Position numbers and translations under genes: made by a program. Below the pieces are notes generated by a model that worked only from the letters and a program-made list of their open reading frames with translations, was not told the DNA's origin and did not search any database. Positions 113 to 9,757 of a DNA stretch of 9,757 nucleotides are shown here, piece by piece. How positions within the stretch are numbered: the stretch's first letter is position 1; each line of letters begins with the position of its first letter. The DNA lies in contig JAGLYR010000170.1 of the NCBI GenBank assembly GCA_023132135.1, positions 1-9,757 of the forward strand, written 5' to 3'. The stretch comes from Candidatus Eiseniibacteriota bacterium (GTDB lineage: Bacteria > Arandabacterota > Arandabacteria > JAGLYR01).

Positions 113-1774
113 ATGCGACGGATGATTCTGCTGACGGTGGCGTTTGCCATCGTGTCCCTGCCCGCCCACGCTACCGTTTTCAATGTTCCGACCCCGTATC
201 CGACAATCCAGAAGGCTGTGGATGCTGCGTCCGCGGGCGACACAGTCCTCGTGGCTCCGGGGACGTACAACGACTGTACCCATCATCCCCCGGCGGAGCC
301 GGGCAGCGGCCTCGCCTGCGTGATCATGAAATCCGGCGTCACCCTCCTGGGTTCCGGAGAGGATGTGACCACGATTGACGCTCAGTTCAACGGGATGGGC
401 ATCTATTCCAGAGAAATCACCGATGTTGTGATTGAAGGCTTTACCATCATGAAGTGTATTGACAAGAACTGGCCCGACTACGGGCCGGCCGTCCACAGCT
501 GGCAATCCTCGTTGACAGTCCGCGACTGCACGATCGGCCCCAACGGGGACGGCGGCATCAACGCCCGGCAGTCTTCGGATCTGACTGTCACAGACTGCGT
601 GTTCACCCACAATGACGCCAAGTCGGGCGGAGGGCTGCATCTGGAGCAGAGTACGGGCAGCGCGCAGAGCTGCCAGTTTGACGGCAACGCGGCCCCCATT
701 GGCGGAGCGGTCTACCTCCGCTACTCGACAGCCACCATCGAGGGCTGTGAGCTCACCGGCAACAGCACGGCCGGTGGCGTCGGCAGCGGCGGCGCCATTC
801 TTTGCGAGAACTCCACGCCGACCATTCGCCACTGCACCATCTCGGGCAACACGGCCAGCATCAATGGTGGTGGAATCTGCGCAATCGAGAGCGGGGGTCA
901 GATTACGGCCTGCACGCTCCGGGACAATGAAGTCACCGGCGACTTCGGTCAGGGCGGCGGCATCTGCTTCCTCCAGTTCTCCACCACGACGGTGGAATCC
1001 TGCACGGTGGTGAGAAACACAACCACGGGGGACGATAGTGACGGCGGAGGCTTCTTCTGCCGGGCGTCCGATGTCACCATCACAAACTGCACCGTGGCTC
1101 ACAACTCCATTGCGCCCCCCTTCAAGGGCGGCGGTGTCGGAGGCGGCATCGCCTGCTACAGCGCCAACCCCATCATTGAGAAGACCATAGTCGCCTTCAG
1201 CGGCATCGGAGCGGGCGTGGCATGTCTCAACGCGGGAGCGGAACCTTTCATCTCCTGCTGCGATGTGTTCGGGAATGCCGGGGGCGATGCCCTGTGCGGG
1301 GGCAACATCGGGACGGGCAATTTTTCAGCCAGCCCTGTCTTCTGCGACACCCTGGTCTACGACTACAACCTGCAGGATTCCTCTCCCTGCGCGCCGGGGA
1401 ATCATCCATCGGGGCCCGAGATCTGCGGTGGCGCCCTCATCGGCGCGAATCCCGTGGCCTGCTTCGGCGCCGTGGAAACCGAGGGCGTCCGGATCACCCG
1501 GGATCCTCTCATCTCCACCGCCCCTAACCCATTCAACCAGTCAACGACCATCGAATTCGGGCTGACAGAGCCCGCGAGAGTGACCCTTCGCGTCTATAAT
1601 GTGACGGGCCGGGAAGTCGCCTCGCTGAACGACCGCCTGATGGCGGTGGGAACCCACCGGGTCACGTGGGACGGCACCACCGATTCCGGGGAACGCGCCG
1701 CCAGTGGAATCTACTTCTATCGTCTGACGGTGGGCGACCGGTCCCACACCGGTCGAATGGTCATGGTCAATTAG
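113..1774 (+). CDS. Secreted Cys-rich right-handed parallel beta-helix protein with FlgD-like/T9SS C-terminal domain
   Basis: The 553-residue protein starts at an ATG seven bases after GGAGG (101-105). Residues 1-20 form a signal peptide (charged start, hydrophobic core, likely cleavage after AHA). Residues 21-60 hold the typical opening of right-handed beta-helix proteins (PTIQKAVDAA, GDTVLVAPGTY). About 75-400 are beta-helix coils of 23-30 residues, repeating GGG-hydrophobic and x-C-T-hydrophobic-x-x-N motifs. Cys recur at fixed coil positions (139, 162, 187, 212, 241, 267, 297, 326), with a second ladder after the GGG motifs (231, 256, 285, 316, 348, 371). Residues about 466-553 form an FlgD-like Ig/T9SS type A sorting module with PNPFN, VYNVTGREV and SGIYFYRL. 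Such proteins are exported and often bind or cleave polysaccharide. I see no acidic cluster proving lyase activity, so the substrate is unknown. It is closed by its own terminator. Confidence 0.9.
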   Translation: MRRMILLTVAFAIVSLPAHATVFNVPTPYPTIQKAVDAASAGDTVLVAPGTYNDCTHHPPAEPGSGLACVIMKSGVTLLGSGEDVTTIDAQFNGMGIYSREITDVVIEGFTIMKCIDKNWPDYGPAVHSWQSSLTVRDCTIGPNGDGGINARQSSDLTVTDCVFTHNDAKSGGGLHLEQSTGSAQSCQFDGNAAPIGGAVYLRYSTATIEGCELTGNSTAGGVGSGGAILCENSTPTIRHCTISGNTASINGGGICAIESGGQITACTLRDNEVTGDFGQGGGICFLQFSTTTVESCTVVRNTTTGDDSDGGGFFCRASDVTITNCTVAHNSIAPPFKGGGVGGGIACYSANPIIEKTIVAFSGIGAGVACLNAGAEPFISCCDVFGNAGGDALCGGNIGTGNFSASPVFCDTLVYDYNLQDSSPCAPGNHPSGPEICGGALIGANPVACFGAVETEGVRITRDPLISTAPNPFNQSTTIEFGLTEPARVTLRVYNVTGREVASLNDRLMAVGTHRVTWDGTTDSGERAASGIYFYRLTVGDRSHTGRMVMVN

Positions 1775-2011: not shown

Positions 2012-5000
2012 ATGCGCAGGCACCCAGCCCTCATGATCCTCGTTCTTCTCGGCCTCTCACTGGCGATGCCCCCGGTCCTCGCCGCCTCGGCAGCAGAAGG
2101 CGAGGCGATCCACGTCAGGCTCGAGGGGCAACAGGTCGTGATGACATACACAGGGACGGATGGGATCGCCGGCGAGCTCCCCGTGGTGAGCCGTCTGGTC
2201 CCCGTCCCCGCCGGAGTCGAGACGCTGGTGCCCGGGAAAACCCGGTGCGAAACTGGTGGGACCATTTCCCAATTGGACCAGCCGCCTGCGGGGATTGTGA
2301 CTGTGGGATCGGCCATGAGCTTCCGGGGCAACCGCTGGATCCCAGTGACCCTGCGGCCTCACGGGCTGGACGCCGACACGGGGGAGATCATCCGGTACGA
2401 CCGGGTGGAAATCGTCCTTTCCCCCGCGGGCCAGGTGCCTTTCAAGGGTTCTCTTGCCGGCCCGGTGGACGCGACACCCAGCCAGGCACTCTACTGCGCC
2501 ATTCATCAGGACGGGACCACGGGCTACCTGATTATTACCGCACCCCAGTACGCGGACGCCCTGGATCCGCTGTCCGAATGGAAACGCCTGAAGGGCTACG
2601 ATGTCACCGTGGCGACCACGGACGAAACAGGCGTGGGCCTCACCAGCATCAAGAACTACATCCGCAACGCCTACGAGACGTGGGACAACCCCCCGCTCTA
2701 TGTCCTCCTGGTGGGAGATGTGGACGATATTCCCACCGACTACTTCGGGGGCGACGTGACCGATCATGTGTACGTCCTGGCGGACGACGAGGACTACCTG
2801 CCGGATCTTTTCATCGGCAGGTTCTCGGTGGAGGACACCTACCAAGCTGAGACTATGGTTGCCAAGACAGTGAACTACGAGCGCCACCCGTACACGGACG
2901 AGGGAACCGACTGGTTCAGCCGGGCGCTGATGGTAGCCGGCGACTACGGGTCCGCCACTCCGGTCCAGACCAGCCGGTTCTGCGCGGAGAGTCTCTTCGA
3001 TGCCGGGTTCACCAGCGTGGACAGCGTCTACGCCTTCGAGGACGGATCCGGCCAGTGGGACGGGGTCGTGCCCATCACGACCGCTGTGAACTCCGGTCTG
3101 ACCGTGATCAACTACCGCGGCTGGGCCTTTGGAACGGGAGGCTGGCAACCGCCGGAGTTCCAGACCGTGAACATCGGGGGACTTTCCAACGGCTGGAAGC
3201 TGCCGGTAGTTTTCAGCTGCGTGTGCCACACGGGAAACTTCGGCGCCGACGCGGAGGCGTTCGGCGAGGCATGGGTCCGTTCCGGAAGCCCTACGGAACC
3301 CCGCGGGGCCGTGGCTTTTGTCGGAAATGGGGACCCGTGGTCCTACACGAGGTGGAATGACCGGATGGCCATGGGACTCTACGAATCCATGCGCGTCGAC
3401 AACCTGAGACGGGTCGGTCCCATCATGACCGGCGCAAAGATCCGCATGATCGAGCAGTTCCCGTCCGAGCTCTGGTTTGCGGATAGCGCCGATCAGTCCG
3501 TGGAGTTCTACTTCTACATCTATAACCTCCAGGGCGATCCCGAGCTCAACATCTGGACCGCCGCGCCTCAGGAAATCGAGGTAGTGCACCCTTCCTCCGT
3601 TCCTGTGGGGACGGGCTTCATCGAGATCACCGTAGAGGATGCCAAGACGAAGTCGCCCATTCCCGGCGCCCGCATCGGCATTGTCCAGGGCAATCAGGTG
3701 CTGGGCTCCGCGCACACCGATTCCCGCGGAGTCGCGCTGGTCCCCGCCATCCCGGACAACAGCGTAGACTCCCTGAACATCACGGTCACCGGGATGAATC
3801 TCGCGCCGTACGAAGGTGTCGCAGCGGTAACCGTCCCCGAGGCTTTCCTCGCCTATGCGGATCACGATCTGGACGACGACGATCAGGATGCGAGCGACGG
3901 GAATGATGACGGTGTGCTGAATCCCGGCGAGACGGTGGAGATCGAACTCACACTCCGGAACACGGGGACCACCACAGCTACTTCCGTGACGGCCGCGATC
4001 GATTCCATCTGGGGCGCCCAAGTGCTGGCCGCAGCGGCGTCTTTCGGCGACATCGCGGCGGGAAGCGAAGGAACATCTTCCTCTCCCCTGGTCCTTTCCG
4101 TGGATACGTCAGCCGAGGACGGATTCGTCATCCGGGTGGGCCTCGATGTCTCCTTCGGGGCTTCGAGTCACTCGGTGTCGTACTTCACTCTCCAGGTGTC
4201 CGCCCCCGATCCCCTGTATCTCGGCGCCGTGGCTTCGGCCGACAGTATCCTCGATGCGGGGGAAACGGCGAACATGACCGTGAGGCTTGCCAACACCGGC
4301 TCGGCCGACGCCTCCGGAGTGGAGGCAACTCTCCGCACGTCTACTCCATGGATTACGATCACCGACTCCGTGGGAACATTCGGCACCTTCGCGGTGGGAG
4401 ACACGGTGGAGAACACTACTGACGTCTTCGAGGTGGTGGTGAGCGGGGAGGCGGCGACGGGCCAGGCCGCCGGTTTCGAGATGGAGTTGACCACGGATGA
4501 AGGCGGAATCTCGACCGTGACGTTCGCTATCATCGTCGGGCGGGTGGATCACTGCGCCCCCATGGGCCCGGATGCATACGGCTACTATTGCTACGACAAC
4601 ACGGATGTGGACTACGACGCGAGCCCCGTGTTCGACTGGATTCCCTGCTCGCCCGCCTACGGCGGTCTGGGCGAGAATCTGTACCTGCGGAACGACCGTC
4701 TGAAGGCCATAGGACTGCCCTTCGACTTCGTCTTCTACGGCGTGTCCTACGACAGCATCCTTGTGTCCGACAACGGCTGGTTCTCCTTCGATCTGGACTG
4801 GTACCGGGATTTCAACAACTGGCACCTGCCCGACTCCTACGGCAACTTCGCAATGGTGGCTCCTTTCTGGGAGAACCTCAATCCGAGACGGAGAATCAAC
4901 GATATCCGTGTGGCGGACGGGGCTTACACGTGGGCGGACACCGCCGGGCACAGGTTTGTAGTGGAGTGGAGCCGGATTCCCTACTGGGATGAGATGGACA

Positions 5001-5542
5001 ACGACGATCTGCAGACCTTTGAGGTGATTCTCTACGACCAGGAGTACCTCGATACGGTCGATGGAGAGATCGTCTTCCAGTACAAGCGGATCGTGGACAT
5101 CGACCTGACGTACCAGCAGGCTACGGTGGGGATCGAGGACCACACGGAGACCGTGGGACTTGAGTACGTGTTCTCGGGAGTCTATCCCGGTGAATCCGCG
5201 GCCCTCTCCAACGGTCTCGCAGTCAAGTTCACCACCCGCGCGCCGTCGCGAATCGACACGGGCAAGGAAGTGGCGCTCGCCGAACGACCGGGCCTCGCCA
5301 GCTGGCCCAATCCTTTCAACCCGTCCACCGTCGTGCGGTACTCGCTGCCGCGTGAGGAACATGTCACGATCAGCATCTACGATATTCTCGGCCGTCAGGT
5401 GGCCGAGCTAGCGAACGGCGTCCGGCCGGCTGGACCTCAGGAGATCCGCTGGGATGCAACGGGTTTTGCATCCGGGGTGTACTTCTGTCGGCTCAAGACG
5501 CAGGAGGATGCGGAGACCATCAAGATCATGTTGCTGAAGTAG
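2012..5542 (+). CDS. Gingipain-like (peptidase family C25) multidomain secreted protein with T9SS-type C-terminal domain
   Basis: The 1176-residue protein starts with a signal peptide (1 to about 25). Residues about 30-140 resemble the C25 propeptide, and about 170-515 the C25 catalytic fold (GYLIITAPQY at 171-180, YVLLVGDVDDIP at 230-241, LPDLFIGRFSV, INYRGW at 366-371, FSCVCHTGNFG at 401-411, GAVAFVGNGD). Cys405 aligns by eye with gingipain R Cys244, but the catalytic His position holds Trp371. About 520-612 is a carboxypeptidase-regulatory/Ig-like domain. An Asp-rich, probably Ca-binding linker (618-640) follows, then two CARDB-like beta domains (about 630-730 and 735-843, each with an NPGE/DAGE then hydrophobic-RNTG pattern). 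About 845-1077 is a beta-sandwich with the VSDNGWFSF motif seen in exported FCB peptidases. About 1095-1176 is the FlgD-like sorting module (WPNPFNPST, IYDILGRQV, SGVYF). It is probably an extracellular or surface cysteine peptidase, or a binding protein if the missing His is real. Confidence 0.9.
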   Translation: MRRHPALMILVLLGLSLAMPPVLAASAAEGEAIHVRLEGQQVVMTYTGTDGIAGELPVVSRLVPVPAGVETLVPGKTRCETGGTISQLDQPPAGIVTVGSAMSFRGNRWIPVTLRPHGLDADTGEIIRYDRVEIVLSPAGQVPFKGSLAGPVDATPSQALYCAIHQDGTTGYLIITAPQYADALDPLSEWKRLKGYDVTVATTDETGVGLTSIKNYIRNAYETWDNPPLYVLLVGDVDDIPTDYFGGDVTDHVYVLADDEDYLPDLFIGRFSVEDTYQAETMVAKTVNYERHPYTDEGTDWFSRALMVAGDYGSATPVQTSRFCAESLFDAGFTSVDSVYAFEDGSGQWDGVVPITTAVNSGLTVINYRGWAFGTGGWQPPEFQTVNIGGLSNGWKLPVVFSCVCHTGNFGADAEAFGEAWVRSGSPTEPRGAVAFVGNGDPWSYTRWNDRMAMGLYESMRVDNLRRVGPIMTGAKIRMIEQFPSELWFADSADQSVEFYFYIYNLQGDPELNIWTAAPQEIEVVHPSSVPVGTGFIEITVEDAKTKSPIPGARIGIVQGNQVLGSAHTDSRGVALVPAIPDNSVDSLNITVTGMNLAPYEGVAAVTVPEAFLAYADHDLDDDDQDASDGNDDGVLNPGETVEIELTLRNTGTTTATSVTAAIDSIWGAQVLAAAASFGDIAAGSEGTSSSPLVLSVDTSAEDGFVIRVGLDVSFGASSHSVSYFTLQVSAPDPLYLGAVASADSILDAGETANMTVRLANTGSADASGVEATLRTSTPWITITDSVGTFGTFAVGDTVENTTDVFEVVVSGEAATGQAAGFEMELTTDEGGISTVTFAIIVGRVDHCAPMGPDAYGYYCYDNTDVDYDASPVFDWIPCSPAYGGLGENLYLRNDRLKAIGLPFDFVFYGVSYDSILVSDNGWFSFDLDWYRDFNNWHLPDSYGNFAMVAPFWENLNPRRRINDIRVADGAYTWADTAGHRFVVEWSRIPYWDEMDNDDLQTFEVILYDQEYLDTVDGEIVFQYKRIVDIDLTYQQATVGIEDHTETVGLEYVFSGVYPGESAALSNGLAVKFTTRAPSRIDTGKEVALAERPGLASWPNPFNPSTVVRYSLPREEHVTISIYDILGRQVAELANGVRPAGPQEIRWDATGFASGVYFCRLKTQEDAETIKIMLLK

Positions 5543-5657: not shown

Positions 5658-8084
5658 TCAATCACTATTTCTGACTACCCTGAATCCCACAACGTCATCC
5701 GGTGAATTCGGCCACCGGGGACCGCGGCAGGCCGAACGGCAATCCCGCGCGTGATAGTACCATGAACCGCCGCGGACAACGCGCTGGCCGCTCGTCTCCG
5801 TCCCCACCGGATCGATGACGATCGCTTCTTCATCGTACGGCCCGTAGTAGTCCCAGCACCATTCCCACACGTTCCCGTGCGTGTCGTAGGCACCCGATGC
5901 GTTCGCCTGCTTCAACCCGACTTCGTGTGTGCTGGAGTCCGCATTGCCGCAGTACCAGCCAGCCAGGTCCAGGGAAGCATCCAAACCGCAGGCCTCCTCC
6001 GTGATATCGCCCGTGAAGAAGGCTGTCCGGGTCCCGGCCCGGCACAGGTACTCCCACTCGGCTTCGGTGGGAAGCCGCCACCCGCCGACCTCGGTATCCC
6101 AGGTAACATCCGACCCGCTCACAGTGTAGGCACGCGGATAGCCATTGGCGTCGGACAGGGCATTGCAGTATTCAATCGCATCCAGCCAGTCCACCCGTTC
6201 CACCGGACGCTGGCTCCCCGCGAAACGCGAGGGGTTAGCGCCCATCCGGAGCTCGTACTCGCTCTGGGTTACCTCGTGGGCCGACACCACGATGTCCCGG
6301 GTCAGAACCACCGTGTGGAGAACCTCGTCGGAATTCCGCCCGGCCTCGCTCGCCGGACTCCCCATCTCAAAGATGATGACTCCCACGAGCGGGCCTGTGA
6401 CCGTTTCGGTCCCGGAAGCGTTGCCCACAGCGTCCTCGAAGTAGAAACTGTACTCGTGCGTTCCGGGTTCCAGTCCCATAGCCTGATACTCAAACACCGC
6501 ACCTGCCCAATACGTTGTGTCGATCGCCGTCATGTCAAACGGAGCACCGTCGATCATCACCTGATAGGTCACCGGAGGTTCCCCATCTGCATGGCTGTAG
6601 TTGACGCTATACACAACGGTGGACTCGGGGGTTGCCGCGTGGGGGGAGTGGCTGAGATCTCTCAGGTAGACGCCGGACGGCGTCGTAGCAATAGCCACTC
6701 TTGAGATCCCGGACCACAGTGGAACCTCGTCGCCAACCTTAAGAGCAAAGTAGTACTGAGTCTCGAAAACGAGTCCAGTAACGAGGAACGTTTCGGGTTC
6801 CCCCGGCAACGACGGCACGGGTTCCCCCGTGCACTGAATTGCGGAGTCCCAATTGCCGGTCGTAATTGACTCGGTATGGTACCGAATATCGTACGACGCA
6901 GCCTGACCTACGAATCCGTCGTCGCCGGACGCGGCCCACACGAGTTCCATAGACGAAGCTGTGTTCGGCGTCGCCGACAAATTGAAGACTGTCCCGGGAG
7001 CCGTCACATCCTCGAACGCCCTTGGGCCGCGAAAGATGATGATTTCTCCCTCTTGGTCCGCGATCACCACGAGGCCGTTGTTCCCGAGGGCCACATCGTG
7101 GGCATCGGGAGTGAGGACCGATCCCATCAGAACGGGCGCCCGCGGACTGCGGACATCGATCACGTGAAGTCCACCATCGTCGGCCGCAACAAAGGCCATC
7201 CCGTCGCGGACTTTGATGGCATCGCTGTCTCCGTTCAGAGCCAGCGAGCCCACAATCACCGGCGTCTCGTCCTCGTTCACCTCGAGGATCTGAAGCCCCC
7301 CGCTGCCGTCGGAGATGTACGCGTACCCGTCGACCACTTCAATATCCCGGGCGTTTCCAGGAGTATCGCAGTACGCCACCTTCTCCAGCTGGCCGGGGAC
7401 CAGAACCCGCGCATCCATCACGGTCAGGCCCATCTCATCGTCCGCGATGTAGGCGAAACCGTCAACGACCTCCACAGCCTTGGCATAGCCGCGCGAGTAG
7501 AGGAAAACACCGAAGTAGTCGAGCTTGCCCGGCGCGACGGGGACAGACCGGAAGACCCTGAGCCCCTTCCAGCTCTCTGCCAGGTACACGTAGTAAGGTT
7601 CGCTGGGATCATCCGTCTCAATGATGAACATCCCTTTACCATCGACGGCCGTACTCCCGGCCTCAAAGGCCACAACGCTGTCGGGATTGGTCACGTTGTA
7701 GGTCGTGATCCCCTCGGTTCCCTCGACCACCAGAGCGATATGCAGATAGCTGCCATCTGGCTGAGGGGCCGCAATGACCTTCACCGCGTCGGCCCGTTTC
7801 CTGGTGTCGTGGGTGGACCTGAGGACCGGATGCGCGGGGTCGGAAATGTCCACCACGTGGAGTCCCGCCTGCCCGCCGGCCACGTAGGCGAAGTCGCCCA
7901 GTACATCGACGCCCGTGTTATCGCTGGGCAGCTTGAGCCTCCCGACGATCTCGAACGGAGATGTGGGCGGGCTGTAGAGATCCTGTTTTCCGCAGTTGAC
8001 TATCAGCAACGTCAGCGACAGGACCCCAAGTGTTGCGACCAAGGCCAAGCCCCTCACCAGGGGCACCCTGCCCCCCCCCTCCAT
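5658..8084 (-). CDS. Lipoprotein with LVIVD beta-propeller, fibronectin-III-like domains and C-terminal SUMF1/FGE-sulfatase domain
   Basis: The 808-residue protein starts at an ATG six bases after AAGGAG. An in-frame start at 8162 would overlap the upstream gene's end and put 26 charged residues before the signal. Residues 1-30 form a lipoprotein signal ending at Cys31 (LLIVNC); Asn just before the Cys is atypical. About 49-354 hold seven LVIVD-like blades (for example DGFAYIADDEMGLTVMD, DGYAYISDGSGGLQILEV), suggesting a seven-bladed surface propeller. About 360-470 is a fibronectin-III domain, and about 475-570 another Ig-like domain. About 570-808 is FGE-sulfatase: FEMGSPASE, HEVTQSEYE, NPSRF, WRLPTEAEWEY, GNVWEWCWDYYG, VVRGGSW, VGFRVVRNSD. 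By eye against human SUMF1, Cys784 matches Cys341, but the Cys336 position is Tyr779. Oxygen-dependent formylglycine synthesis is therefore unlikely. It is probably the last gene of a three-gene operon, 61 bp after its neighbour. Confidence 0.88.
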   Translation of the reverse strand: MEGGGRVPLVRGLALVATLGVLSLTLLIVNCGKQDLYSPPTSPFEIVGRLKLPSDNTGVDVLGDFAYVAGGQAGLHVVDISDPAHPVLRSTHDTRKRADAVKVIAAPQPDGSYLHIALVVEGTEGITTYNVTNPDSVVAFEAGSTAVDGKGMFIIETDDPSEPYYVYLAESWKGLRVFRSVPVAPGKLDYFGVFLYSRGYAKAVEVVDGFAYIADDEMGLTVMDARVLVPGQLEKVAYCDTPGNARDIEVVDGYAYISDGSGGLQILEVNEDETPVIVGSLALNGDSDAIKVRDGMAFVAADDGGLHVIDVRSPRAPVLMGSVLTPDAHDVALGNNGLVVIADQEGEIIIFRGPRAFEDVTAPGTVFNLSATPNTASSMELVWAASGDDGFVGQAASYDIRYHTESITTGNWDSAIQCTGEPVPSLPGEPETFLVTGLVFETQYYFALKVGDEVPLWSGISRVAIATTPSGVYLRDLSHSPHAATPESTVVYSVNYSHADGEPPVTYQVMIDGAPFDMTAIDTTYWAGAVFEYQAMGLEPGTHEYSFYFEDAVGNASGTETVTGPLVGVIIFEMGSPASEAGRNSDEVLHTVVLTRDIVVSAHEVTQSEYELRMGANPSRFAGSQRPVERVDWLDAIEYCNALSDANGYPRAYTVSGSDVTWDTEVGGWRLPTEAEWEYLCRAGTRTAFFTGDITEEACGLDASLDLAGWYCGNADSSTHEVGLKQANASGAYDTHGNVWEWCWDYYGPYDEEAIVIDPVGTETSGQRVVRGGSWYYHARDCRSACRGPRWPNSPDDVVGFRVVRNSD
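8071..8079 (-). repeat. Homopolymeric G9 tract in codons 2-5 of the SUMF1 lipoprotein
   Basis: On the coding (minus) strand nine consecutive G follow ATG-GA. Losing one G gives a stop nine codons after the ATG (…TGC CCC TGG TGA); gaining one destroys the signal peptide and lipobox frame. G or C tracts of this length near the start of surface-protein genes are typical slippage sites for phase variation. Variation itself cannot be seen in one sequence. Confidence 0.6.
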
Positions 8085-8090
8085 TCTCTT

Positions 8091-8096
8091 CTCCTT
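8091..8096 (-). promoter_or_regulatory. Shine-Dalgarno site fixing the SUMF1 lipoprotein start
   Basis: On the minus strand AAGGAG (8096 down to 8091) is followed by a six-base spacer, AAGAGA, and ATG at 8084. This supports the 808-residue form, which begins directly with the lipoprotein signal, over the 26-residue longer reading. Confidence 0.8.
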
Positions 8097-8145
8097 CCTC
8101 GATGATGTCCTCAAGACTCCTCCCAGCCTCGGTGAACCGGTCCTT

Positions 8146-9072
8146 CTAGCGGCCCTTGCCAAGATCCTCTTCAGGGATATAGATCTTCGCCGTCGCGCGT
8201 ATCCCAGACCCGTCTACAAGCTGCAGTTCGTAGGTGTGCAATCCCTCCGGTACCTCGAGCCAGAAGCACTTTCTCTGACCTGGCAAAATGTCGGGGTACT
8301 CCAGGTAAGAAGCCGTCGCCATCTTCCTCACGTGATACCGGTGAACCCTGAGCTGCTCCTCGCCCTGGAACACTCCAATCCCGTACGATTGGCTCCCGCT
8401 CATCGAGGTGTCGAAGTCAAGGCGCGTGCATACCTTCACCTTCGTCGGTCCCACGATCTGGAACCGGAGAGGTTCATCACTCGCGAAGCCGTAGTGCTCG
8501 CTCAAGGCGCCACTCTCGAACTGAAGTGTGTAAACAGAGCTGTACTCCAAAGGAGTGAGGGAAACCATGGGGGTCTCGCGAACCTTGACCTTCCGAAAAA
8601 CGCGCGCGGCCACTTTCCGTTCTCGCTCAACGACAAAGACTTGATATGTATGCTTCCCACTCGGGATATCCACGTAGACCCGCCGAATCTGGCCCACTCG
8701 GCCGTCAGTCTTCCCACACAGGTGTGCTGCATCACTCGGCTCGGTGGAAATTGCCTTCCGCAAGAGCTCCGCTCCGTCCTCGATCACCCGAACGGTGAAA
8801 CCCGCGCGCGCTGGGTCCTTTTCATCGTAGATGTAACGGGTGACAATCTTGACGCGCCTCGGCCCACTCAAGGTGAACTCCAAGGCCGAGCGGTCCTCCA
8901 ACCGGTGGTAGGTCAACTCTTTATCGTCTATGGCGATGCAGATTTTCCCGGGGGAGTTCTCCGGTTCCAGCGAACGCCACTTGTAGGCAGCTTGGGCTGG
9001 ACCCGCCATCAACCCGGCAAGGACCGTGACCCACAGCACGCAGCGGAACCCCCTACAATCCGCAAATCTCAA
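8146..9072 (-). CDS. Secreted protein made of two tandem copies of an unrecognised ~138-residue beta-rich domain
   Basis: I do not recognise the family. With the TTG start at 9072 it has 308 residues. Residues 1-28 look like a signal peptide (Arg-rich start, core CVLWVTVLAGLMAG, cleavage after AQA). The mature part is an internal duplication at exactly 138 residues without gaps: LEFTLSGPRRVKIVTR (64-79) matches LRFQIVGPTKVKVCTR (202-217) at 8 of 16 positions, and VYVDIPSGKHTYQVFVV (132-148) matches FWLEVPEGLHTYELQLV (270-286). Shared marks are GPxxVKxxTR and hydrophobic-P-x-G-x-HTY. The pattern suggests paired beta-sandwiches. There is no lipobox, membrane anchor or sorting module, so it is probably periplasmic. 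The start is uncertain: TTG 9072 has GAGGA five bases upstream, and CTG 9084 follows an AGAGGTGA site by seven bases. An ATG at 9204 is rejected because it overlaps the upstream gene by 113 bp. The tight link to the PgsW-like gene suggests a shared role. Confidence 0.8.
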   Translation of the reverse strand: MRFADCRGFRCVLWVTVLAGLMAGPAQAAYKWRSLEPENSPGKICIAIDDKELTYHRLEDRSALEFTLSGPRRVKIVTRYIYDEKDPARAGFTVRVIEDGAELLRKAISTEPSDAAHLCGKTDGRVGQIRRVYVDIPSGKHTYQVFVVERERKVAARVFRKVKVRETPMVSLTPLEYSSVYTLQFESGALSEHYGFASDEPLRFQIVGPTKVKVCTRLDFDTSMSGSQSYGIGVFQGEEQLRVHRYHVRKMATASYLEYPDILPGQRKCFWLEVPEGLHTYELQLVDGSGIRATAKIYIPEEDLGKGR

Positions 9073-9091
9073 ACGCTTCCTCAGTGACTTC

Positions 9092-9099
9092 TCACCTCT
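9092..9099 (-). promoter_or_regulatory. Ribosome site overlapping the PgsW-like stop codon
   Basis: AGAGGTGA (9099 down to 9092 on the minus strand) includes the TGA stop of the PgsW-like gene and resembles the extended Shine-Dalgarno AGGAGGTGA. Ribosomes ending on the upstream gene would sit on the next gene's initiation region, which suggests translational coupling. It lies seven bases before a CTG and 19 before the TTG start. Confidence 0.5.
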
Positions 9100-9757
9100 T
9101 CCTGTTTCGCTCCCCAGGGGCAACCCGCCGGCGGACCTCCGGGAGCAACGCCAGGCAACATATGCCCAGATAGACAATAAGAAGCACCACAGCCAAATCG
9201 ACACGGTATGCTATCTTCAGGAACACGTCTCCCAACCCCACTTCGGGCATTTCGACCGGTTCGATCGCAAGACCATGCTCCCGGGCAATCGACTGGACGC
9301 GGGAGAGATGTACCACAGGGATCCCAGAGTCCGCCATCCGCATCATCGTCCCCTTGCGCGGAAAGTTCATAAGCGGCAGATCCATGAGTAGCCCGGAGTT
9401 CAAGAACGGTTTGTTCTCCGCGCTCCCCAGGCTAGCGATCCCGCCCCCGACGTTAATGTAGGTTTTGATCCTCTGCCCACCAGACTGGTCGTGGTAGATC
9501 CCCATCCGCTGGGCAATGCTTTCCTCCAATGATCCCGTCCGGATCGCACGTACACCGTTACGCTCGATTGCCTCCCAGATCTTCTCCCGCCCTCTGGGCG
9601 GCAGGCCCCTGCCCATGTCGTTTTCCCCACCCGGAGAGGCGGCGACCGAGCGGGTACTGAAAACCCCCTCCGCCAGAAGCAGGGCCTCCATGTCCAGCCA
9701 TGTGAAGTCCGGATCGGTGGCCCCGTACCCGGAAGCACTCACCGAGGTGATGGGAAT
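9092..9757 (-). CDS. pgsW: Poly-gamma-glutamate system protein, PgsW-like (partial, 5' end beyond window)
   Basis: The frame is open through the right edge, so only the C-terminal 221 residues are present. The GTG at 9742 is an internal Val codon, not a start. Seen here: SASGYGATDPDFTWLDME (7-24), a Gly-rich INVGGGIASLG (101-111), a stretch around MDLPLMNFPRKGTMMRM (125-141), and a C-terminal membrane helix about 185-207 (VDLAVVLLIVYLGI) followed by a basic tail. From memory, the GATDPDFTWLDME segment and the C-terminal helix match the 'poly-gamma-glutamate system protein' family that accompanies pgsB and pgsC in some Gram-negative-type bacteria. Its exact role is unknown; it is presumed to help make or export the polymer at the inner membrane. 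The gene's end overlaps the ribosome site of the next gene, so it is probably in one operon with it. The family name rests on recall without a search. Confidence 0.65.
   Translation of the reverse strand: MPITSVSASGYGATDPDFTWLDMEALLLAEGVFSTRSVAASPGGENDMGRGLPPRGREKIWEAIERNGVRAIRTGSLEESIAQRMGIYHDQSGGQRIKTYINVGGGIASLGSAENKPFLNSGLLMDLPLMNFPRKGTMMRMADSGIPVVHLSRVQSIAREHGLAIEPVEMPEVGLGDVFLKIAYRVDLAVVLLIVYLGICCLALLPEVRRRVAPGERNRKR

Follow-up and report, generated by a model that had tools for sequence, protein, structure and literature searches.

The 9,757-base stretch analysed here (contig JAGLYR010000170.1 of a Candidatus Eiseniibacteriota bacterium, hereafter the window) carries three closely spaced minus-strand genes, encoding part of a PgsW-like protein, a secreted protein that we call X, and a propeller lipoprotein. 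They form the end of a conserved gene set that is a good candidate for a route of poly-gamma-glutamate (PGA) across the outer membrane. We put at slightly below 60% the probability that this set, a diderm operon for PgsBCW, X, a beta-barrel protein Y and the propeller lipoprotein, serves dedicated outer-membrane export of PGA or a related gamma-glutamyl polymer. A sequence-only reading of the window had recognised the same three genes and suggested that the unfamiliar proteins act with PGA synthesis or export; their linkage to pgs genes is supported by the evidence below, whereas the export step itself is a proposal.

The window carries the tail of a split pgs operon

The window spans the whole of contig C80, one of 345 in a draft genome of 3.4 Mb, and breaks off inside pgsW. 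The encoded C-terminal half matches TIGR04332, 'poly-gamma-glutamate system protein', over profile positions 142-307 of 307 (161 bits against a cut-off of 100). An N-terminal part is found on contig C81 (positions 7-312, profile positions 4-105), on the minus strand at the very start of that contig, with pgsC and pgsB directly upstream: pgsC at 332-799 (TIGR04011, E 2e-32, 112.2 bits against an equivalog cut-off of 96.45; Pfam PF14102, 107.4 bits against 27) and pgsB at 796-1971 (TIGR04012, E 6e-128, 426.8 bits against an equivalog cut-off of 222.7). The two PgsW pieces are complementary and non-overlapping, with about 35 residues missing between them, and are the sole PgsW matches in the genome. 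Comparison of C80 with C81 revealed no shared overlapping sequence, so that their union is inferred rather than read; on these grounds we strongly infer a single pgsW gene and an operon pgsB-pgsC-pgsW-X-lipoprotein. The expectation that pgsB and pgsC would lie beyond the contig end was thus borne out. Textbook pgsBCA has pgsA/capA (PF09587) in the operon; the only match to PF09587 in this genome is on contig C37, unlinked to the pgs operon.

The listed 352-residue open reading frame of X, starting at GTG 9204, is too long and overlaps pgsW. The likely start is TTG 9072, which has a GAGG Shine-Dalgarno sequence and lies 19 nt past the pgsW stop. Of the translational coupling suggested for this gene pair, the tight operon spacing stands, but coupling of the overlap type is not needed in the window.

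X and Y co-occur with PgsW and keep their order across phyla

Among 386 genomes from 328 genera, PgsW was found in 40, and X in 27 with a first profile and 31 with a deeper one. PgsW is present in 26 of these 31 X genomes, against 3.2 expected (hypergeometric 2e-25), and every X match below E 1e-20 falls in a genome with PgsW. Y, searched with its first profile, occurs in 27 genomes, 26 of them with PgsW (3e-29), and the genomes combining X or Y with PgsW span 19 families. The sequence-only reading had proposed a survey of whether the repeat family follows pgsW in other genomes; it does so directly in 21 of the 26 genomes holding both.

Gene order was read in 80 named loci, collected by a PgsW scan with one genome per species, from KSB1, Bacteroidales, Cloacimonadota, Marinimicrobia, Chlorobi, Melioribacter, Calditrichaeota, Fermentibacteria, Armatimonadetes and unclassified bacteria. 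In KSB1, Bacteroidales, Cloacimonadota, Marinimicrobia, Chlorobi, Calditrichaeota and others among these the order is pgsB-pgsC-pgsW-X-Y and then the propeller gene. Counting only loci with a long enough contig, pgsB and pgsC precede pgsW in 66/67, X follows pgsW in 71/71, Y follows X in 61/62 and an LVIVD propeller is present in 36/50, fractions that are upper estimates because the loci were picked by the likeness of their PgsW to that of module-bearing loci; the 386-genome sample is less biased. Neighbouring genes in the named loci are frequently separated by -3 or -22 bases, as is seen where operon genes are translationally coupled.

Several loci show variant arrangements. The pgsB-pgsC-pgsW genes stand alone at L242, L244, L245, L247, L249 and other PgsW loci, and in G106 (L112) the set is reordered, with barrel, propeller and acyltransferase genes ahead of the pgsW-X pair on the same strand. 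At L251:6873-8571 (G327) pgsW occupies two reading frames, one of the matches counting a TAG stop, which points to a broken gene or an assembly error. A lone X-like protein far from pgsW lies between genes for an NtrC-type regulator and seryl-tRNA synthetase (L012:9823-10659, G010), another is found on contig C39 of G297, and such proteins may have a role of their own.

X is a tandem duplication with a predicted jelly-roll fold

The description of X as a secreted protein built from a duplicated domain holds. Local alignment of one half with the other scores 85, against 27 ± 5 (maximum 45) in 500 shuffles, and HHalign comparison of half-profiles built from 53 relatives aligns 133 columns with a probability of 99.8 and E 6e-30, a match far beyond chance that marks X as a genuine tandem duplication. 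Neither the window protein nor the 53 members reached the cut-off of any Pfam or NCBIfam family, and no sequence match to a carbohydrate-binding module (CBM) family rose above cut-off in the 53 members. Sequence searches of X, Y and PgsW against the PDB returned nothing significant, and plasmid records held no X homologues. MtxA was considered as a relative of X and set aside: PF22433 matches the window protein below cut-off (E 0.0012-0.002) and 3 of the 53 members, and the location of the MtxA gene among signal-transduction genes (PMC4439547) was counted against kinship.

The structural model of X comprises two jelly-roll beta-sandwiches (mean predicted local distance difference test score, pLDDT, 92.5). 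Its first repeat matches structures of CBM36, CBM6 and CBM51 with Z-scores of 8-10 and root-mean-square deviations (rmsd) of 2.5-4, the best at Z 10.2 over 108 residues with an rmsd of 2.6; the second repeat was compared through tandem alignments only. The model also matches the cellulose-synthase subunit BcsB (Z 8.2-8.5), and the fold search found no close single match spanning the whole protein. By its predicted fold, X thus resembles the CBM jelly-roll superfamily, a shared jelly roll being no proof of polymer binding.

Y is a predicted 14-strand outer-membrane barrel, fused in some genomes to an X-like domain

Family Y was detected behind X while reading the gene neighbours of relatives. 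Unlike in these relatives, no barrel gene lies between X and the lipoprotein in the window; the window is a modified version of a longer module in which Y normally stands between X and the propeller. The sole Y of this genome is encoded on contig C295 (L104:8423-10042), beside another C25 peptidase gene, and its N-terminus is itself an X-like domain, matched at E 7e-9 by the first profile and at 1e-13 by the deeper one. Fusions of X and Y also lie directly behind X in genomes G065, G076, G217 and G346, and gene fusion of this kind gives independent support for a working link between the two families.

The C295 fusion was modelled with a mean pLDDT of 81.5, mostly above 90 in the barrel, which has 14 membrane strands, the last ending at the final residue. 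The Y model matches the monomeric channels CymA (Z 23.9 over 284 residues) and OmpG (Z 20), likewise 14-strand barrels, but shares only 6-7% identity with them and differs in gene context and in its own conserved motifs (Y/D-D-N-I-L-x-Y-S-D, F-T-E-Y-D and D-P-x-H-x-G-R). Among the many barrels returned by Foldseek were also the PgaA porin (4y25, rank 9) and PelBC. Y is accordingly predicted to be a 14-strand outer-membrane barrel, and because of this fold the host is very probably diderm.

The third gene is conserved in its propeller

The third gene encodes, as the sequence-only reading had it, a large lipoprotein with a propeller and a SUMF1 domain (Table 1). It is the counterpart of the lipoprotein of about 340 residues that ends the module elsewhere, with an added fibronectin type III-like and SUMF1 domain; we base this orthology on its position and on the lipobox-like start, VNCGK in the window and CGK in relatives. 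The propeller profile was rejected as proof of this orthology, being outscored by giant LVIVD proteins on contig C167 that hold more repeats. These are two adjoining frames, some 1700 and 1440 residues long and dense with LVIVD repeats (L204-L233). The window lipoprotein and C167 are the only two places in the genome with LVIVD repeats, so that their presence in the window is unlikely by chance.

The SUMF1 domain was likewise considered as the key of this gene and rejected, since the gene kept in relatives encodes a propeller of some 340 residues lacking this domain, and this genome holds five matches to the formylglycine-generating enzyme (FGE) family; conservation lies in the propeller and not in SUMF1, a point beyond the earlier description. 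Catalytic FGE has two active-site cysteines in its C-terminal part; the segment here reads GGSWYYHARDCRSACR, which differs from the catalytic pattern, and the domain is probably non-catalytic. It matches TIGR03525, the model of the SUMF1-fold lipoprotein GldK/PorK of the type IX secretion system (T9SS), at E 1.9e-14, but its 53.8 bits fall well short of the equivalog cut-off of 350, and it is joined to an LVIVD propeller.

A candidate export route and its alternatives

Chain synthesis by PgsB and PgsC at the inner membrane is established for the Bacillus enzymes, and the carbohydrate-binding-like domains of BcsB guide cellulose through the periplasm. We propose that PgsB and PgsC would polymerise glutamate at the inner membrane, in a complex that may include PgsW, and hand the chain to the periplasm, where X would bind and guide it as the BcsB domains do cellulose. 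Y would be the exit pore in the outer membrane, encoded apart in this genome and bearing an X-like domain at its periplasmic N-terminus, and the propeller lipoprotein would be an accessory subunit at the outer membrane.

Several observations weigh against this route. PGA, the putative product of the module, could also exit by another way, and gene co-location points to a shared pathway, not to which step each protein takes in it. X is not adjacent to pgsW in five genomes, weak X-like matches occur without pgsW in five, and neither X nor Y is present in 12 of the 40 PgsW genomes, so that X and Y are not required for pgsBCW as such, which can stand alone. The sole Y of the present genome is unlinked to the pgs operon, and the 80-locus fractions are biased upward. 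The barrel fold common to Y, CymA and OmpG reveals no function, CymA and OmpG passing small or mid-size solutes. On the favourable side, inward-facing residues, assigned by strand alternation, carry a net positive charge in 51 of 54 Y sequences, a count made without a control set that lends weak support to a polyanion pore.

X and Y might alternatively serve the pgs product without exporting it, anchoring or modifying a PGA layer at the outer membrane while the polymer exits otherwise and the propeller protein and, in some genomes, an HGSNAT-type acyltransferase decorate or attach it. The binding-module-like fold of X would suit such a role, as would the linkage of an HGSNAT-like membrane acyltransferase, a possible polymer-modifying enzyme, to the module: its gene lies behind the propeller in 12 named loci and ahead of pgsB in one (L125:14376-15512 is one of these loci), and also in the G106 module and on C81 of the present genome (L003:5421-6521). 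FadL-like and porin-like barrels, moreover, need not be polymer exits. Y, however, is second only to X in constancy and is a wide 14-strand barrel, and no further outer-membrane channel gene was found in the module; we regard a non-export role as unlikely, at roughly one chance in five.

Slightly less probable still is that the module makes and secretes some other polymer, or a gamma-glutamylated conjugate, in place of a free PGA capsule, with PgsBCW no more than relatives of amide ligases. The likeness of X to carbohydrate-binding modules and the position of pgsA outside the operon could be read in this sense, and the part played by the three-gene capBCA locus of Francisella in capsule formation is disputed (PMC4688374); PgsB and PgsC, on the other hand, score well above the equivalog cut-offs for PGA synthesis. 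That X, Y and the propeller have nothing to do with one another, being secreted proteins placed beside pgs genes by chance, as the C25 peptidase and beta-helix genes of the window probably are, is very improbable and already contradicted by the order kept across many phyla, the co-occurrence in 19 families (chance 1e-25) and the X-Y fusions.

Other features of the window and neighbouring genes

The features of the window are collected in Table 1. Its plus strand encodes a right-handed beta-helix protein and a C25 (gingipain-type) peptidase, both probably plain neighbours of the module. The peptidase was considered as a module part, a C25 gene lying behind the propeller in some relatives, and was set aside; because the genome holds 27 C25 matches, finding one in the window means little. 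On C81, a gene for a large PAS/GAF hybrid sensor kinase (L003:2450-4966) immediately precedes pgsB in the same orientation; the kinase is possibly a regulator.

Table 1 Features of the window with the evidence for each.
Feature	Position	Strand	Evidence
pgsW, C-terminal 221 residues	9092..9757	minus	TIGR04332 E 2.8e-47; cut by contig end, 5' part at C81:1-351
Protein X, secreted tandem jelly-roll protein (predicted fold)	8146..9072	minus	Start choice, pgsW linkage, model mean pLDDT 92.5
X, predicted signal peptide	8989..9072	minus	Hydrophobic stretch ending AQA/AYKW; helix 10-27 of model
X, first jelly-roll repeat, ~137 residues	8578..8988	minus	Repeat alignment; fold match to CBM36 and related modules, Z ~10
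X, second jelly-roll repeat, ~140 residues	8149..8577	minus	Repeat alignment; strand order as in repeat 1 (model)
Lipoprotein, LVIVD propeller + fibronectin type III + SUMF1/FGE-like	5658..8084	minus	Pfam; likely start ATG 8084; lipobox-like VNCGK
LVIVD repeats of propeller	7110..7913	minus	PF08309 E 1.6e-28, 98.2 bits against cut-off 20.2, 4 stretches
Fibronectin type III-like domain	6741..6989	minus	PF00041 E 2.6e-4, under gathering score
SUMF1/FGE-like domain	5670..6371	minus	PF03781 E 5e-38
Beta-helix protein	113..1774	plus	T9SS-type C-terminal tail
C25 peptidase	2018..5542	plus	T9SS-type C-terminal tail

Relation to known systems and significance

The set shares with Bacillus pgsBCA(E)/capBCADE an adjacent PgsB ligase and PgsC membrane protein in the same order, but PgsA/CapA (PF09587) lies outside the operon, with PgsW, X, Y and the propeller in its place, and the host is very probably diderm. 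With Bcs, Pga, Alg and Pel secretion it shares the plan of an inner-membrane synthase, a periplasmic jelly-roll protein and an outer-membrane barrel, X matching domains of BcsB, and Y a wide range of barrels that includes the PgaA porin and PelBC. It differs in having a Mur-ligase-like PgsB, with PgsC, instead of an inner-membrane glycosyltransferase, a polyamide instead of a polysaccharide, and a monomeric-looking 14-strand barrel. No tetratricopeptide repeat (TPR) family was among the Pfam hits of X and Y members, the rest of the genome not having been searched for a TPR scaffold, and no sequence homology to Bcs, Pga, Alg or Pel parts was seen. Lacking a glycosyltransferase synthase, any TPR scaffold recognised in X or Y, and such homology, the set would be a functional analogue of Bcs/Pga/Alg, not a member.

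Nearly all knowledge of PGA comes from Gram-positive bacteria and haloarchaea; one review names a single Gram-negative producer, Fusobacterium nucleatum (PMC3815933). In the open-licence literature we found no paper naming X or Y or describing outer-membrane export of PGA, and TIGR04332 appears there only as the annotation name of Francisella CapA, 'poly-gamma-glutamate system protein' (PMC5362203), a likeness by annotation name alone. The parts are thus of known kinds, and their combination seems undescribed. That PgsBCW, X, Y and the propeller lipoprotein make up a dedicated and widespread diderm machine for PGA secretion, the polyamide counterpart of Bcs/Pga/Alg, is in our estimate an even bet.

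The module offers a periplasmic candidate, X, and a pore candidate, Y, coupled by gene order and fusion, and two unnamed protein families gain a testable role. The capacity to make such a polymer is thereby suggested for Marinimicrobia, Cloacimonadota, KSB1, many uncultured Bacteroidales and others. If true, many uncultured phyla would wear a poly-glutamate coat, a nitrogen-rich polymer of ecological relevance to marine and anoxic waters.

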